From Nannochloropsis salina CCMP1776 (taxonomy: Eukaryota; Sar; Eustigmatophyceae; Eustigmatales; Monodopsidaceae), in assembly GCA_004565275.1 (NCBI GenBank), contig SDOX01000140.1, positions 61,887 through 89,310 on the forward strand: DNA of 27,424 bases, written 5' to 3'. The translations under genes and the position numbers were made by a program. Within the stretch, counting starts at the first letter, position 1; every line of letters begins with the position of its first letter. Below the pieces are notes generated by a model that was not told the DNA's origin, did not search any database, and worked only from the letters and a program-made list of their open reading frames with translations. Positions 1,922 through 20,800 of the stretch are shown here, one piece after another.

Positions 1922-4644
1922 TTAGACCCAGTTCCAACGGTTGACGTTGTTCCACTGACAGAAAGGAGGGGAGGGGGAATCGAGGGAGAGAATGTGAGAA
2001 GGCAAGGTCTGGGGGAGGAGCTTCTCGGAGGCACTGGCGAATGCAACAAGGGAAGTGTGTTTCATGAGGGATACACGGGGACAAGACGCACACGATGACG
2101 CGGGGACGTGATGGAAAAGGGAAGAAAGGACAAGGGAGGGGCCGAATGTGAACGTGGGGCTTACCTGGTTCCATCCGCCGTTGTTCCAGCCGTTGTTCCA
2201 CTGCAAAAGGAAAGAAAGGGGAAGAGGGAGTTGACGGTTAGTGCCAGTAGAGATCGAGACAGCGGCTTGCGGAGGTCAATTCAACCACGGAGATACGATC
2301 AGAAACGGAAAGGCAGGGTTGGATGCATATATATGTGTGTGGCGGCTCGAGCTAGACAAGTATTGGGAGCGATTCGTGTCTGACGATTTTTGCGGTCATA
2401 TTGAGGGAGATAGAAATGACAGCATCATAAGAAAGCGGGCTCTGTGATCGCGGGCCTAGTCACCTGGCCCTGTCCGTTCTTATTCCACTGGAGTGGAGAA
2501 TGGAGAGGTCGGGGGGGAGGACGGGGGGGAGGACATGATAGTAAAGGGGTGTATGGGGTAATAGGGGGATGTGGATCAAGATGGATGTGATCGGGGTGAG
2601 CAAGACGAGGTCGAGTGGTGTGCTCCGTGGACTAACCTGATTGTTGTTCCACTGGGGGCAGGAGGGATCATGGTATGGAAGGGAAAGGGGGGTGCACGCG
2701 ATGAGGGTGATAGCAGTCAGGAAGACAGTGGGTGAGAGTCACGCAGGGGGCGGGATAGATTTGATGAATCCGAGTAAAGGATATGGCAGGTGGGGGAAGG
2801 GAAGTGAGGGGTCACGGGGGTACAAGCTTAAAGGACGAGGAGGATAGTAAGAGTGGAGGGGGTGGTGCGGGAGCAAGAGGAGGGGAGGGAGGGCGAGCCG
2901 GAGGGGGGGGGGGACCATGACAAGCAGAGGAGAGAGGGGAGGACGAAAAAAGGGACTAGTAAATCGACCTCTCTAAACCACTCACGTTGTTGCCCCAGCC
3001 GTTGTTCCAGCCGCCGTTGTTCCAACCGTTGTTCATGCCGTTGTTCCAGTTCTGAGGGATACAAAAAATCAGATCAGAAGAAGCGCCCATGCAAGAAGGA
3101 CCACTAGACAACCATTTCTCGATGCATGCTTTCGCGCTACTCACGTTGTTGCCCCAGCCGTTGTTCCAGCCGTTGTTCCACTGCTAGGGTACGGGAAGGG
3201 GGAGGAAAAGGGTTAGTCCGAAGGAACAGTATAGAGAACCCTGTCGAGGAGACCAGGCGGCACATCTGGGGGAGGACGATACTTCTCCCACAGGAAAAGG
3301 AGGGAATGAGGGGAGGAGACATGGGTGCTTACGTTGTTGTTCCAGCCGTTGTTCCAGCCGTTGTTCCACTGGGAGGGGGGAAGCGTAGGAGGGAGTATGA
3401 GTGCGGATCCTTGGAAAAAAGGGTCGAGGTTTCCTCCTTGGAAGGTCCGGGTAGGAAACCGCGCGTCCACTGGCTCTCCGTACGCCGGGAGTCAGGGTAC
3501 GGGGGCACTGAGGACCGCACGCAAGGGCAGGAGGGAAACGAAGCACAGGTCCCAAGAGGCCAAAAAAACAGAGAGAGCCTCGGCAAGCAGGGACGTGTGG
3601 CGGGGCCTTATGGCGAAGGAGTCCCATGCCCGCACGTCGGGTGTGAACAGACAGGTCCAGAGTGCTTGCGGGGGCACGAGATGCTCTGAATAAGAAGGGA
3701 CAACGCTCACCTGGTTGCCCCAGCCGTTGTTCCAGCCGTTGTTCCAGCCGCCGTACTTCTGGCCATACTTCCAGGCCCACTAAAAGGGAGGGAGGGAGGG
3801 AGGGAGGGTGGGATCAGTGGATGAGTGGAGATCCAAGTAATCCAGGAGGGAAACCAATGTGAGCTGTCTGTCACTGTCTGTCAATGAGTGCTGGTCTATG
3901 GAAATGAGACTTACCGGGTCGTTCCAGCCCCAGTTGTTGTACTTGTTCCACCACCAGAGCTGTGCGAGGGGAGAGAGAGAGGGCGGACGATGGGAGAAGG
4001 GAAGCGATAGTGCAGTGCGGGTGAGTTCAGGAGATAGTGCCAAGCAGAATGAGAGCAAGTAGGCCCTGATCCTGCGACAGAGAGGCACCCAAGAGGAAAA
4101 CTAGAACAGCCGGGAACGAAAAAACGCTGGTCGTACGCACCTTTCGATGGTTATCATCTCCCTCTGTGGGGGGGCCCTCCTCCATGTTCATGCCGTCCAT
4201 CGCCCCAGGCATGGGCATATCCTGTTCGCATGAAGAGCGGTAGTGTCGAGGTGAGCCCTGATCGTGTCACGACCGTCATCCCGGCTTCCCACGGAGGGTG
4301 CTCTTACCATGCGGAGGTTCGGTGTGTTGGCATCCGGAGCCGCCACCGCCGGCATGCTTGCCTCCGTCGCAGGTTCTTGTACCTTCTCGACTGTGGTCTC
4401 AGCCGACGCTTCTTGCGCCTGTGTGTGTCAGCGTATAGAAGATGAGATTCATGATGGGCGAAAGTACGTGATCGGGACCGGGCGAGATCTTTCCTGCCTG
4501 ATCAGTCTCCTGAACTCGATCCAGCCCAACCAAAAGAATAAAACTTACCCTGCGAAGGTTGGGAGTGTTCATAGTGTCGCCATGGACCAAGGCTAATGCG
4601 CCAAGGAGCAGGTAGAAGGTGCAGGTGGTGGCGTGAAATCGCAT
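1922..4644 (-). CDS. Secreted Trp/Asn/Gly-repeat protein encoded by 12 phase-0 exons, several of them micro-exons
   Basis: Exons, in order of translation: 4644-4549, 4418-4308, 4221-4141, 3959-3915, 3779-3711, 3368-3333, 3180-3145, 3051-2986, 2651-2637, 2487-2464, 2200-2165, 1954-1922 (stop TAA). All introns are GT-AG, 86-342 nt long, and every junction is phase 0. The sum is 648 nt, or 215 residues. Residues 1-22 form a signal peptide with core FYLLLGALALVHG. Exon 1 ends in NTPNLRR and exon 2 ends in NTPNLRM, so a small module is repeated. Exons 2-3 are Glu/Ala/Pro/Met-rich. Exons 4-12 (119 residues) hold 28 Trp and 47 Asn in units such as WNNGWNNGWGNN, and seven of these nine exons start with a TGG codon directly after CAG. 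One exon is only 15 nt (WNNNQ). Exon skipping would never break the frame. I know no matching family. A wall, matrix or adhesive protein is an inference. Confidence 0.85.
2637..2651 (-). other. 15-nt micro-exon (WNNNQ) of the Trp/Asn-rich gene
   Basis: On the minus strand TGG AAC AAC AAT CAG sits between a pyrimidine-bearing CCCCCAG acceptor and a GTTAGT donor. It keeps phase 0 with the exons on both sides. Its coding content matches the repeat of its neighbours, which is the main support for such a small exon. Confidence 0.75.
3784..3808 (+). repeat. (GGGA)n tract before the acceptor of exon 5 of the Trp/Asn-rich gene
   Basis: A short GGGA run on the plus strand. In the sense of the minus-strand gene it is a CCCT polypyrimidine tract ending in TTTTAG at the exon 3779-3711 acceptor. 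It is the only clear tract of this kind in that gene. Confidence 0.85.
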
Positions 4645-15094: not shown

Positions 15095-17276
15095 GGCATG
15101 TACCACCACCCCTCTTCGTGCTTTCTCAACAGCACTAACAAGGCCTCCCTCTCGCGGTTTGACCACTCCCCTGCCGTCTGGGGAGGTATTGATGAGCAAG
15201 TGATAAGGAGATGCACGAGGGAATATGAGTACGTACGTCTGATATCTACTGAAGGAAAGATAAAAGTCGTCGATTTCATCCCCTGTCGCCACACGACGAT
15301 AAATGGAACGATATTCGTACCTAGAGTTCCTTTTTTGTGAAGGCTACTGCGCATTCGATCACGTGCCAGCAGGCTGCGCAACAAAGTAAAAGGGAACTGC
15401 AAGGGGGGGCAGAAATCTTTCCTTTGTGACGTTAGGCTTGATTGCCCCCGGACACAACGAAGGGGTTTTATAGAGCTTTTTATACAACGGCTCGAACTTC
15501 GTTTTTACCGCGTCAAAGCTTCCGCTATATTCCATATACGTACCGATAATAACAGCTTAGCAACATTGTTGCCCGTTCAGAGGCAAAAATGAATTTGGAA
15601 AACCAAATGAGCAGGTACAGACACACCGCTTCGACGCAAGGATTGAGGCTTCCAACTACGCGCCGCAACGATTTGATTTTGTGGGATTCTTTGCGTTCAG
15701 ACTCCAAACGTCCACCTTAAAATGCGTTGACTTTATTTCTCTTCTTTTCCTTCAGCTTCTCTCTCGGTATTCAGCACCAAGATATAAACCTCGAGGAAGG
15801 GAGGTAGGCCTTCTTGGAAATATGCATCTCTGCACTCTACTGCTTTTACTTCCACTGAAGTATGTAGATGCTTAAAAGTCTTTAATGCGATATTTACCGA
15901 GTAAATCAAGCGATTCTGACACGAGCCAGCGTGAGCGCAACACATTTCCGCCTCCAGTGTCCCCCAACGAAGGTCCTCGATATTTCGCTCGTTCAAAAAT
16001 AATTATCCTTAGGCGACATGTCTCGTTCGACTTACAAGGTATAAGAAATTTCAGCTATACCGTAAATATGAGAGCCCTAGCACGCGTAGTCAACTACCGA
16101 GACTTCTTCGAAATTAGAACTCTGCAACAACCTCTGAAGATGGGCAGCCCGGTACAAGGATCCTAGCAATGTTTTTGGTCTATGACCTTCAACTTATGCA
16201 TGATCAATTAGAACTTCTCTCCCATTGCCAGGATGTTGGAAAGAGGATGAAGCTTCAGACAGTAAAAAATGTTGCGGTGACATTGATGTCCAAGAGACAA
16301 TCCACGGCGTTTAAATTCAGTCCCAGTTGGATTTAAAATCGCTTTTGGGAGCCGAAATGTGTTTCCAAGAACAATTCCTTTTCGAAAGTGATCAAGGCTA
16401 CGATGTGAATGACGTAAAACAGTCAATAGGGGATGACAATTATTATGGAAGTGCGTAAAAATATGTTGCCTGAAGTGATGCGATCTCGACATGCCAAATA
16501 GTGCCATCACTAACATATGGTCCATTTTCACCCAATTGTATAGATAGAAAGGATTAAAAGATTGTAATTTGTTTGCTGTTCTTCAATTTGTCATTTACAT
16601 AAGAAATATAACAGCCACGTCCCGGCAAGGTTTCAGCAGTGTTTGGGAACTTGAAGCGATTTAGCGACTCCGAGAGCGCCTCATCGAATAAATGTACAAA
16701 GGTCGCAGAAAGGTGATCAAGTGGGAGATCATAACTGTGTGCGATGCCTCATTATCTGCACAATTTAAATTACACTAACCTTTTTAATAAGTTCTGAGGG
16801 AGGGGGTGCGTCAACGACTCTCAACGGCTTTTCAAACTGCCTCAACTTCAAGGAAAGGAACGTATTCGAGCTGCTAACCGAGCGACACCTGCCTGTACTC
16901 TGCGGTACGAATCCGATCCTTTGATAAAGTCGTGTATTCCAACTACCAATCAGAGAGTATCGACGAATAGGTCCAGAAGAGGCACGTTTGTTTTTCTCAC
17001 TACTTCCAATCAGGTGTTGTGTTCACTTTCTTCCTCGAGCGATAGTTTAGGTATTGCAAAAGTTTACGGCTGTGCAATGGCATCATTTGTAAAGGCTGCC
17101 ATGTAGATTTGTATTTAACGAGGCCCATCAATGTATCGATTTTGCAAGCTTCTGAACTCTGTCCTACTAAGACGAGCATTTTCGAGCCTCGCAATGAGCA
17201 CCACCTGAACATCTCACACATCAATGCCAGGTCAAAAGCTACACAAATAAACAGAATTCTTTCAAAGCAAACCTCC
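15095..17276. other. AT-richer divergent intergenic region
   Basis: This separates the NAD kinase start from the first Tyr-rich repeat gene. It is AT-richer than its surroundings and free of GGGA tracts. The best open stretch, 16208-16531 on the minus strand (107 codons, His-rich), has no recognisable domain, signal or splice partner. The promoters of both neighbours, and possibly a missed first exon of the NAD kinase, must lie here. Confidence 0.5.
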
Positions 17277-18176
17277 ATGCGCTTCACATTGGCTTTATCT
17301 GGTCTTTTGGCCACCACAAGTTTTGTCACCATCTCCTCGGCCGCTGATGTTGTCGCAAATGCTGACAAGGCGGCGTACAAAACAATGGCCACGCATAAGG
17401 CTCCTGTCAAGAGCTACGACGCACGCGAACCTGTGCAAGTCCAACACGTCGAGAAGTATTCTGAGTTCTATGAGCCTCGCTCTGAGTACCATGATTCGCA
17501 CTACGAGCCGCACCGTGAGTACCACACACATGAACATGAAAAGCCGTACACCAAAATGGCCGGTGGTGAAGGGGAAATGGACTGGTATTTAGGTAGTCAA
17601 GATGAGTCAATGCATGGTTTTTTGGACGGTAACTGGCTTCATGATGGGAAATGGGATATGAAGAAGGACGATAAGGGATATAAAAAGGATGATAACGGCT
17701 ACTATGAGGAGAAGTATGACAACAAGAAATTGTACTACGGAGGCAAGGATGTAAAGAAGGGTGACTACGGCTACTATGATGATGAGTATGACAACAAGAA
17801 ATCGTACTACAATGACAAGTGGGATAAGAAAGATGGATATGGCCACTATGATGAGAAATATGATGGTAAGAACGCGTACTACGGAAATAAGGGCATGGAA
17901 AGGAAAGGGTATGGCTACTATGATAACAAGAATGATAATAGGAAATCGTACTACGGCGACAATTGGAGCAAAGAAGACGGCTATGACCGCTACGATGGGA
18001 AATATGACAGCAAGGACTATGCCAGTAAAAACATTAAGAAGCATGACTACGGCTATGAAGGCAAAGAGTACGATGGGAAGTACAAGAAGGAGGCATACCA
18101 CGGAAGTTACGAAAGCGGATATAGTGAAGCGAAGAAGGACATTTATAAGCCCCACCTTCGCAAGGGATATGAGTAA
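17277..18176 (+). CDS. Secreted Tyr/Lys/Asp-rich tandem-repeat protein (family A)
   Basis: An intronless 299-residue frame. The frame is open upstream to about 17109, but Met at 17277 directly starts a signal peptide with core LALSGLLATTSFV and a likely cut after ISSA. Residues about 50-95 are His/Tyr/Glu-rich. A DESMHG element (17601-17618) precedes the repeats. Then about six imperfect units of roughly 24 residues follow, for example GYYDDEYDNKKSYYNDKWDK, alternating Tyr pairs with Lys and Asp. The protein ends in YKPHLRKGYE. Nearly every repeat residue is charged, Gly or Tyr, and no Cys is visible in the mature part. Such composition is typical of cross-linked or adhesive extracellular proteins and of disordered matrix proteins; the function is inferred and no family is recognised. 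It shares YGY-aromatic-DD, DxSMHG and KPxLRK with the gene at 19532. Confidence 0.9.
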   Translation: MRFTLALSGLLATTSFVTISSAADVVANADKAAYKTMATHKAPVKSYDAREPVQVQHVEKYSEFYEPRSEYHDSHYEPHREYHTHEHEKPYTKMAGGEGEMDWYLGSQDESMHGFLDGNWLHDGKWDMKKDDKGYKKDDNGYYEEKYDNKKLYYGGKDVKKGDYGYYDDEYDNKKSYYNDKWDKKDGYGHYDEKYDGKNAYYGNKGMERKGYGYYDNKNDNRKSYYGDNWSKEDGYDRYDGKYDSKDYASKNIKKHDYGYEGKEYDGKYKKEAYHGSYESGYSEAKKDIYKPHLRKGYE

Positions 18177-19531: not shown

Positions 19532-20800
19532 ATGCGGTGTGCATTCTCTTTATCACTTGTTTTAAGCGTTGCGAATGTCGTGGTGTGGTCCTTAGCCACA
19601 GAGGTGGCTTCTGTAGGAGTTACTGCACAGGCCGCAAACCAGACTGAAGTGGATTTGCAGAAGCTTCAAGCTCAAAATCTCAACTACTCTATTGTGCCCG
19701 CAATTCTGCCGTCCTCAAAATTTGTGCCGACCTCCAATAATACGGAGTCCAAAAGTGAAGATGATCCTCTTCAAGTCGAGAAAATCGAAGAGGTGGTTGC
19801 AGGAAATACAACGAACGAAGAAGTTGTTTCGAGTATGAGTGGTCACGATTCTTATGATGGTGCGCACGTAAAGAGTTACAAAGACATCCAAGACCACTAT
19901 GGTGAAATGAAGCATGACTATTCTCAAAACAAGAAGTACGGCTACTTCGATGACAAGCACGTGACGGACTACGGGAAGCGTAATAGTAAGTATGGCAAGA
20001 TGGAGCACAAGCACCACAAGAAGGACCAGGACCACGAGTACGGCTACTTCGATGACAAGCACGTAACGGACTTCGGGAAGCATGACAGCAAGTATGGCAA
20101 GATGGAGCACAAGCACCACATGAAGGACCACGACTACGGCTACTTCGATGACAAGCACGTGACAGACTACGGTTATGACAAGATGGAGCACAAGCACCAC
20201 ATGAAGGACCACGAGTACGGCTACTTCGATGACAAGCACGCCAATGACTACGGTAATAGCAAGTATGGCAAGATGGAGCACAAGCGCCCTAAGAAAGATA
20301 GTTATGGCAATATTCATGGAAATGGCGACGGAAAGCACAATAATCAGTACGGCAAGAACGAGTACATTCAGGATGAATACGGCTACAACGATGCCCATGA
20401 ATTTTCACAGGACAAGGATTACAAACCTCGACTACGCAAGCCAAGTCACGAGAAGGAGAAACAGGGTAAAATCCAGCAACATTATAAAGAGACCGAAAAA
20501 GTGATCGGGAAGGGCTTTGGGAAGGTGGGCGAGGTGCTGAATGATGGCAAAGATGCCATGTGGCCCGGGCACAAGGACCAGAGCATGCATGGTCATAATC
20601 ATCACCACGCAAATAATGTTGACAATCTAGGATTCGAAGATCAGGTTTCAATTCGCCGCGGTTACAGTAATAGTGATGCAGGGGCTGTCAACAGGAATTA
20701 CAATTACAATAGCTACAACAACAATGATTATCAATCCAATACCCAAGGGTACACGTGGCAGGGGAGCTGGGAGAGTAATGAAGGACAGTACTATTATTAG
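19532..20800 (+). CDS. Secreted Tyr/His/Lys-rich tandem-repeat protein (family B, related to family A)
   Basis: An intronless 422-residue frame. Residues 1 to about 22 are a signal peptide (CAFSLSLVLSVANVVVWSLA). Residues about 34-110 form a Ser/Thr/Glu-rich part with sequons NQT, NYS, NNT and NTT. Four tandem units begin at 19937, 20039, 20135 and 20216 (spacing 102, 96 and 81 nt), each with YGYFDDKH followed by VTDYGK or similar and then KYGKMEHKHHKKD or a shortened form. Then come DYKPRLRKPS (20417-20446), a Lys/Glu stretch, GFGKVGEVLNDGKDAMWPG, DQSMHG (20576-20593), a His cluster, and an Asn/Tyr-rich tail ending YYY. His and Asp clusters could bind metal ions. It is probably a wall or matrix protein; no known family was recognised. 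Shared elements show kinship with the gene at 17277. Confidence 0.9.
   Translation: MRCAFSLSLVLSVANVVVWSLATEVASVGVTAQAANQTEVDLQKLQAQNLNYSIVPAILPSSKFVPTSNNTESKSEDDPLQVEKIEEVVAGNTTNEEVVSSMSGHDSYDGAHVKSYKDIQDHYGEMKHDYSQNKKYGYFDDKHVTDYGKRNSKYGKMEHKHHKKDQDHEYGYFDDKHVTDFGKHDSKYGKMEHKHHMKDHDYGYFDDKHVTDYGYDKMEHKHHMKDHEYGYFDDKHANDYGNSKYGKMEHKRPKKDSYGNIHGNGDGKHNNQYGKNEYIQDEYGYNDAHEFSQDKDYKPRLRKPSHEKEKQGKIQQHYKETEKVIGKGFGKVGEVLNDGKDAMWPGHKDQSMHGHNHHHANNVDNLGFEDQVSIRRGYSNSDAGAVNRNYNYNSYNNNDYQSNTQGYTWQGSWESNEGQYYY
19937..20290 (+). repeat. Coding tandem repeat, four units
   Basis: Units start at 19937, 20039, 20135 and 20216 with TACGGCTACTTCGATGACAA. The lengths differ (102, 96, 81 nt) by whole codons, so the copies expand and shrink in frame. 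High DNA identity between units points to recent unequal exchange or slippage. Confidence 0.9.

Follow-up and report, generated by a model that had tools for sequence, protein, structure and literature searches.

Why should an alga piece together a protein from exons of a few codons each, and build the tail of that protein largely from tryptophan, asparagine, and glycine? The locus raising this question lies in the window analyzed here, by which we mean the whole stretch of 27,424 nucleotides (C26:61887-89310) taken from an assembly of 26,503,672 bases in 103 contigs. An earlier note had described twelve exons with GT-AG borders, phase 0 joins throughout, and a stretch of 119 residues containing 28 Trp and 47 Asn. 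An exon-by-exon rebuild reproduced all of these features, coordinates included, on the minus strand of the window from 4644 to 1922, where the 12 exons yield 215 codons and a stop codon (1922-1924). That the host is an alga, as the note had also supposed, was borne out by a light-harvesting protein that is nearest, among solved structures, to fucoxanthin-chlorophyll proteins. A second light-harvesting protein comes closest to chains labeled LHCI in 9vfj, and the assembly encodes plastid PsaA and PsaB, of which PsaB agrees with chain b of PDB entry 8zo9 at 733 of 737 residues. Assignment to an ochrophyte alga has good support, and a eustigmatophyte is plausible by the size and style of the genome.

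The exons, all on the minus strand, fall into an N-terminal part and a repeat array. Exon 1 (4549-4644, 96 nt) carries the start codon and, judging from hydropathy, a likely signal peptide, MRFHATTCTFYLLLGALALVHG, and closes with NTPNLRR. Exon 2 (4308-4418, 111 nt) encodes linker sequence and exon 3 (4141-4221, 81 nt) an acidic Met/Pro linker. The word NTPNLR ends both exon 1 and exon 2, followed by R in one and M in the other, and resembles a doubled exon end. The array then runs through exon 4 (3915-3959, 45 nt, LWWWNKYNNWGWNDP), exon 5 (3711-3779, 69 nt, WAWKYGQKYGGWNNGWNNGWGNQ), exon 6 (3333-3368, 36 nt, WNNGWNNGWNNN), exon 7 (3145-3180, 36 nt, WNNGWNNGWGNN), and exon 8 (2986-3051, 66 nt, NWNNGMNNGWNNGGWNNGWGNN). 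It continues with exon 9 (2637-2651, 15 nt, WNNNQ), exon 10 (2464-2487, 24 nt, WNKNGQGQ), exon 11 (2165-2200, 36 nt, WNNGWNNGGWNQ), and exon 12 (1922-1954, 33 nt including the stop, WNNVNRWNWV); exons 9, 11, and 12 are marked by an exon-start word in addition to the rebuild.

The borders of these exons stand out from the surrounding sequence. All 11 introns, which are 86 to 342 nt long, begin with GT and end with AG. The donors of introns 1 to 11 are GTAAGT, GTAAGA, GTGCGT, GTAAGT, GTGAGC, GTAAGC, GTGAGT, GTGAGT, GTTAGT, GTGACT, and GTAAGC; seven of the 11 fit GTRAGY, and those of introns 3, 9, and 10 deviate beyond the last base. The acceptors are YAG in every case (10 CAG and one TAG). When the 2,723-nt gene is read on its sense strand, 9 of the 13 GTRA strings are exact donors and 11 of the 52 YAG strings are exact exon starts. 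The window has 14 copies of the word TGGAAYAAY, each inside an exon of the gene (expected, 0.90; largest count in 100 shuffles, 4), and YAGTGGAAYAAY occurs five times, always as an exon start (expected, 0.02). For 9 of the 11 introns, all except introns 7 and 11, retention would break the frame or introduce a stop, and a scan for hidden exons found no further W/N-rich pieces between AG and GT in any of the 11 introns. On this evidence the predicted gene model is almost certainly correct in outline; exons 9 and 10 are less certain because omitting either keeps the frame. The case that the locus is a real and unusual protein-coding gene rather than an artefact is convincing, the splicing itself being predicted.

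Several other features of the window were recorded. Two plus-strand frames (17109-18176 and 19532-20800) have secretion-type starts and tandem repeats rich in Tyr, Lys, Asp, and His (YGYYD and YGYFDDKH types), and both carry K-P-[HR]-L-R-K near the C terminus. Neither has a Pfam match, their mutual BLASTP comparison is not significant (E value of 0.21), and the second occurs only once in its own genome. Six and a half telomere-like GTTAGG units lie internal to the contig at 170-208. The minus-strand segment 11920-12771, with a subthreshold match to the C-terminal domain of NAD kinase (E value of 0.0016; 18.6 bits against a cutoff of 23.7), is probably an exon of an NAD kinase gene.

The product is uneven in composition. 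Its tail of 119 residues contains 28 Trp, 47 Asn, and 23 Gly, with no Cys, no Ser or Thr, one Pro, one acidic residue, and five basic residues; WNNGWNNGWNNG is a Trp-containing peptide of the array type. The shares of 24% Trp and 39% Asn given in the earlier note hold for this tail and do not hold for the whole product of 215 residues, in which there are 28 Trp (13.0%) and 53 Asn (24.7%). The linker at residues 23 to 96 has 14 Asp or Glu against 6 Lys or Arg. The N terminus is hydrophobic, with a top mean hydropathy of 1.89 over 15 residues starting at residue 6, and from its appearance we predict that the product is probably secreted. Within the tail, Asn is encoded by AAC in 45 of 47 cases and Gly by GGC in 20 of 23; the strong AAC preference would fit high expression, though the control gene, which encodes a light-harvesting protein and uses AAC in 13 of its 14 Asn codons, offered few such codons for comparison. 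No Pfam family matched the window protein at an E value of 1, and none in NCBIfam did so at 0.1.

Some modifications and conformations that such a sequence might call to mind were set aside. C-mannosylation of Trp was rejected, with a single WxxW motif in the 215 residues and another single one in a second array in the same genome, on contig C77, whose name we also use for the protein encoded there, and N-glycosylation was rejected with no NXS/T motif in the window protein. A β-strand with all Trp on one face is weakly suggested for the window tail, in which 19 of 27 spacings between neighboring Trp residues are even (as high in 6 of 1,000 shuffles); no such face is indicated in the C77 array (62 of 130 spacings even; as high in 352 of 1,000 shuffles).

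How did an array of this kind come to be divided among exons? All 12 exon lengths are divisible by three and all 11 joins are in phase 0, but these are not 11 independent facts. Among introns 4 to 11, which interrupt the array, seven of eight stand before the TGG codon of the repeat, and their common phase arises because the splice site context recurs at one codon position of the repeat. The clearly independent joins are 1 to 3, in or beside nonrepeat sequence, and phase 0 there is notable but not rare. Exons 5, 6, and 7 are mutually identical at 32 to 34 of 36 nt (exons 6 and 7 at 34), a likeness that is due in part to the almost uniform use of AAC for Asn and GGC for Gly, and they contain 12-nt tandem units with a 100% match. 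The introns show no mutual likeness: when 6 nt were cut from the donor side and 20 nt from the acceptor side, none of the 55 pairs scored above all 100 shuffles, and the best pair was equaled by 4 of 100. Recent doubling of exon-plus-intron units was therefore rejected, since no intron pair has detectable similarity; the introns either diverged long ago after doubling of the unit or were gained separately at the same position of the repeat. Mobile introns were likewise rejected: compared with its own genome at the DNA level, simple repeats being skipped, the entire region matched only itself. The gene is a compact natural case for the rise of exon-per-repeat genes, combining near-identical exons with unrelated introns. 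In a published genome of Nannochloropsis oceanica, genes average 2.7 exons, with a mean exon of 417 bp and a mean intron of 230 bp (PMC3499364), and if the present alga is of that kind, its gene is an outlier in both the number and the size of its exons.

Neither the tail nor the N-terminal part, used as queries in protein searches of the genome, brought up a second copy of the gene. A DNA pattern of two WNNG units, with up to three mismatches, matched seven places, five in the gene and two on C77, and a pattern for WNNQ matched 55 places, all of them on C77; the reversed control of the first and the control of the second gave none. A protein search with the window tail missed C77 even at an E value of 10, so that it was found by the DNA patterns only, and the two arrays appear to be related by motif alone. 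C77 is a stop-free frame of 1,434 codons (L016:2233-6537, minus strand), which from the Met at residue 39 starts with the hydrophobic sequence MRLLFFVPLLLLGCRA. By our own delimitation its array occupies residues 322 to 1190, about 869 residues that include 131 Trp, 323 Asn, 110 Gln, and 97 Gly. WNNQ is the commonest unit, making up 59 of the 89 units of the WNN type; three longer linkers are interspersed, and the protein also has an extended stretch of DWKGN-type units. Asn is encoded by AAT in 108 of 323 cases and otherwise by AAC, and the three codons of the 89 WNN units occur in four synonymous spellings, a variety to be expected where it is the protein, and not the DNA, whose sequence is kept.

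The part of C77 that follows the array matches structures of vanadium-dependent haloperoxidases (10 sequences at E values of 1 or less; best match, 4cit, 4.5e-11), while the whole frame has no match in Pfam. A search of the genome with the joined flanks of C77 found two paralogues, on contigs C73 and C79 and likewise named after them, both free of arrays; one match to C73 crosses a TAG. In the alignment these keep two histidines, as SGH and GGIH in C79 and as AGH and IGAH in C73, and C77 lacks both, having PSGY and GGLQ (Tyr and Gln) where PSGH and GGIH are expected. We take the replaced residues to be the catalytic and the vanadate-binding histidine, as in the fungal chloroperoxidase. C77 is thus probably a pseudo-enzyme whose two halves are separated by an inserted array, which suggests an enzyme scaffold turned into the carrier of a structural array. 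W/N arrays are thus found more than once among the secreted-looking proteins of this alga, and, since the C77 array is uninterrupted, they do not need micro-exons.

Arrays of this composition also occur outside the alga. In a pattern scan of prokaryotes, at least 29 of the 116 stretches listed carry comparable arrays, defined by a frame of at least 100 residues with at least 15 Trp and 15 Asn per 100 residues; the densest among the matches listed has 27 Trp and 46 Asn. Among the examples are proteins of Bacteroidota that begin in a lipoprotein- or signal-like manner and short ones of Magnetococcales that have a signal-like start, and none of the six prokaryotic W/N proteins compared with NCBIfam reached a family cutoff. 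Uncharacterized WNNG-array proteins were seen in Magnetococcales (L094, L100, L114, and L092) and in Bacteroidota (L136, L080, L063, and L129), the latter four sharing, by eye, an N-terminal D-D-[VIM]-Y-[FY] motif. None of the 48 viral stretches with the pattern had a dense W/N frame of 100 residues or more. A W/N array as such is therefore already present in nature, and the composition of the product is not unique, both because of the prokaryotic arrays and because of the longer array of C77 in the same genome.

The reading that we prefer, to which we would give about an even chance, is that the product is secreted and serves as structural material in the wall or the extracellular matrix. It would enter the secretory pathway carrying a neutral, cysteine-free Trp/Asn/Gly repeat as its tail. 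The Trp rings might stack on glucan chains or on a hydrophobic wall polymer, Asn and Gly might allow sheet-like packing through hydrogen bonds, and the acidic third at the N terminus might hold the chain soluble until delivery. The phase 0 micro-exons would leave the frame intact whether a given exon of the array is included, dropped, or duplicated, and the array could therefore vary in length without harm. Secretion, wall location, stacking by Trp, and variation in length are what we infer from the gene. The composition of the tail, with no Cys, Ser, or Thr, few charges, and no sites for N-glycosylation, would suit a packed, insoluble, or surface-binding material better than a folded enzyme, and a wall role is also favored by the occurrence of the second, longer array in a protein with a hydrophobic N terminus. 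Published infrared spectra of shed Nannochloropsis walls have strong protein bands, whose amide I position was interpreted as β-sheet, and the passages concerned name no Trp/Asn protein (PMC11211512).

The secreted structural reading could be carried further, to two versions of a single wall material, namely a micro-exon array adjustable by splicing and an array of nearly 900 residues carried by a dead haloperoxidase. We advance this extension tentatively and regard it as doubtful. If it is true, such a material could have escaped notice, since Trp does not survive acid hydrolysis and the array would hardly be cut by trypsin, and a unicellular alga would have arrived independently at genes for an aromatic structural polymer that, like those of collagen, have an exon per repeat. 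Trp is the costliest amino acid and usually the rarest residue in proteins, and that two genes of a 26.5-Mb genome should each use dozens of Trp residues calls for a reason. Were the product located in the wall, it would be a concrete protein component of a very resistant algal wall, with a reason why it had been missed.

A different use of the same residues is oxidative cross-linking: haloperoxidases or other peroxidases of the alga would oxidize the Trp side chains of the array and so weld the protein to itself or to a wall polymer. The second array is built into a protein of the haloperoxidase family, and two members of that family with both histidines, C73 and C79, are encoded in the same genome. 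However, the loci are linked by composition only, the chemistry is invisible in sequence, and C77 is itself unlikely to be the cross-linking enzyme because both of its histidines have been lost. We consider cross-linking unlikely.

Ranking just after it is the possibility that the tail is a low-complexity product of slippage, grown by 12-nt units and tolerated rather than used. The perfectly matching tandem units within exons 5, 6, and 7 and the nearly exclusive use of AAC for Asn are what slippage might leave behind. Plain slippage would nevertheless not have made an array that spans nine exons, all of which keep the frame and their splice sites, and the array of C77, which is synonymously diverged, argues against it as well; this explanation, too, is improbable.

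A slightly lower place still belongs to a proposal made by analogy, that the product is a variable secreted surface or released protein like those of the schistosome micro-exon genes (MEGs), whose isoforms, formed by alternative exons, would meet grazers, viruses, or bacteria. The statement that an exon can be skipped or doubled without a change of frame was confirmed, as all internal exons are multiples of three with joins in phase 0, so that any subset of them keeps the frame; splice variants are possible in that the arithmetic allows them. MEGs also have short exons, most of them multiples of three, and a secreted product, as the window gene is predicted to have. Because the products of the exons are nearly identical, however, skipping would alter length far more than sequence, and the gene is present in single copy with introns of modest length. 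The likeness to schistosome MEGs drawn in the earlier note thus survives for the exon architecture and fails for intron size, which reaches 5 kb in the MEGs. We think such a role for the product rather improbable.

That the gene model is instead an artefact, with W/N words lying between chance splice-like sites and the micro-exons partly or wholly unused, might be argued from the deviating donors of introns 3, 9, and 10 and from the frame that is kept when exons 9 and 10 are skipped. The exact coincidence of GTRA and YAG strings with exon borders and the harm done by retention of most of the introns make this very unlikely. Least probable of all, and barely credible, is a cytosolic GW/WG-repeat protein that binds Argonaute by the GW hook, an idea suggested by 17 overlapping GW/WG dipeptides in a protein whose hydrophobic N terminus points instead to secretion and which has no Pfam or NCBIfam match.

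Comparison with known systems places the secreted structural reading among several partial parallels. Schistosome MEGs share many short exons, most of them multiples of three, and a product that is secreted, as is predicted for the window protein; 10 to 20 very short exons are typical of them (PMC10526429), and the window gene has 12, of which exons 3 to 12 are 15 to 81 nt long. They differ in that their introns are long, up to about 5 kb with the longest in the middle, that their exons are mostly of 15 bp, that isoforms are documented, and that they belong to another phylum (PMC10526429). The cingulins of diatoms, also stramenopiles, are secreted and highly repetitive proteins, with regions rich in Trp and/or Tyr, that make up an insoluble wall matrix and are built into its microrings (PMC4557024). 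The window gene shares with them a Trp-rich repetitive region, its tail; in the cingulins such regions alternate with KXXK stretches, and by inspection there is no KXXK in the 215 residues of the window protein. The W/N/G proteins of Bacteroidota and Magnetococcales share arrays of the WNNGWNNGWG type behind hydrophobic N termini, but those arrays are intronless and their flanks differ, so that the likeness is compositional; the Magnetococcales set is reminiscent of the envelope proteins of sulfur globules. Vanadium-dependent haloperoxidases are comparable with C77, not with the window gene, by a C-terminal match, but in C77 an array is inserted and the two histidines are replaced. Fibrillar collagen genes also have short repeat-coding exons bounded by whole codons of the repeat, and they differ in encoding Gly-X-Y in exons of the 54-bp type for a triple helix, whereas the window gene encodes W-N-N-G in exons of mixed length. 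Within the literature on Nannochloropsis walls and haloperoxidases and on tryptophan-rich repeats, judged by title and abstract and with subscription journals mostly outside its range, no such protein appeared. As far as these searches extend, no precedent is known for symmetric micro-exons in combination with a Trp/Asn array, but each half of the combination has parallels.
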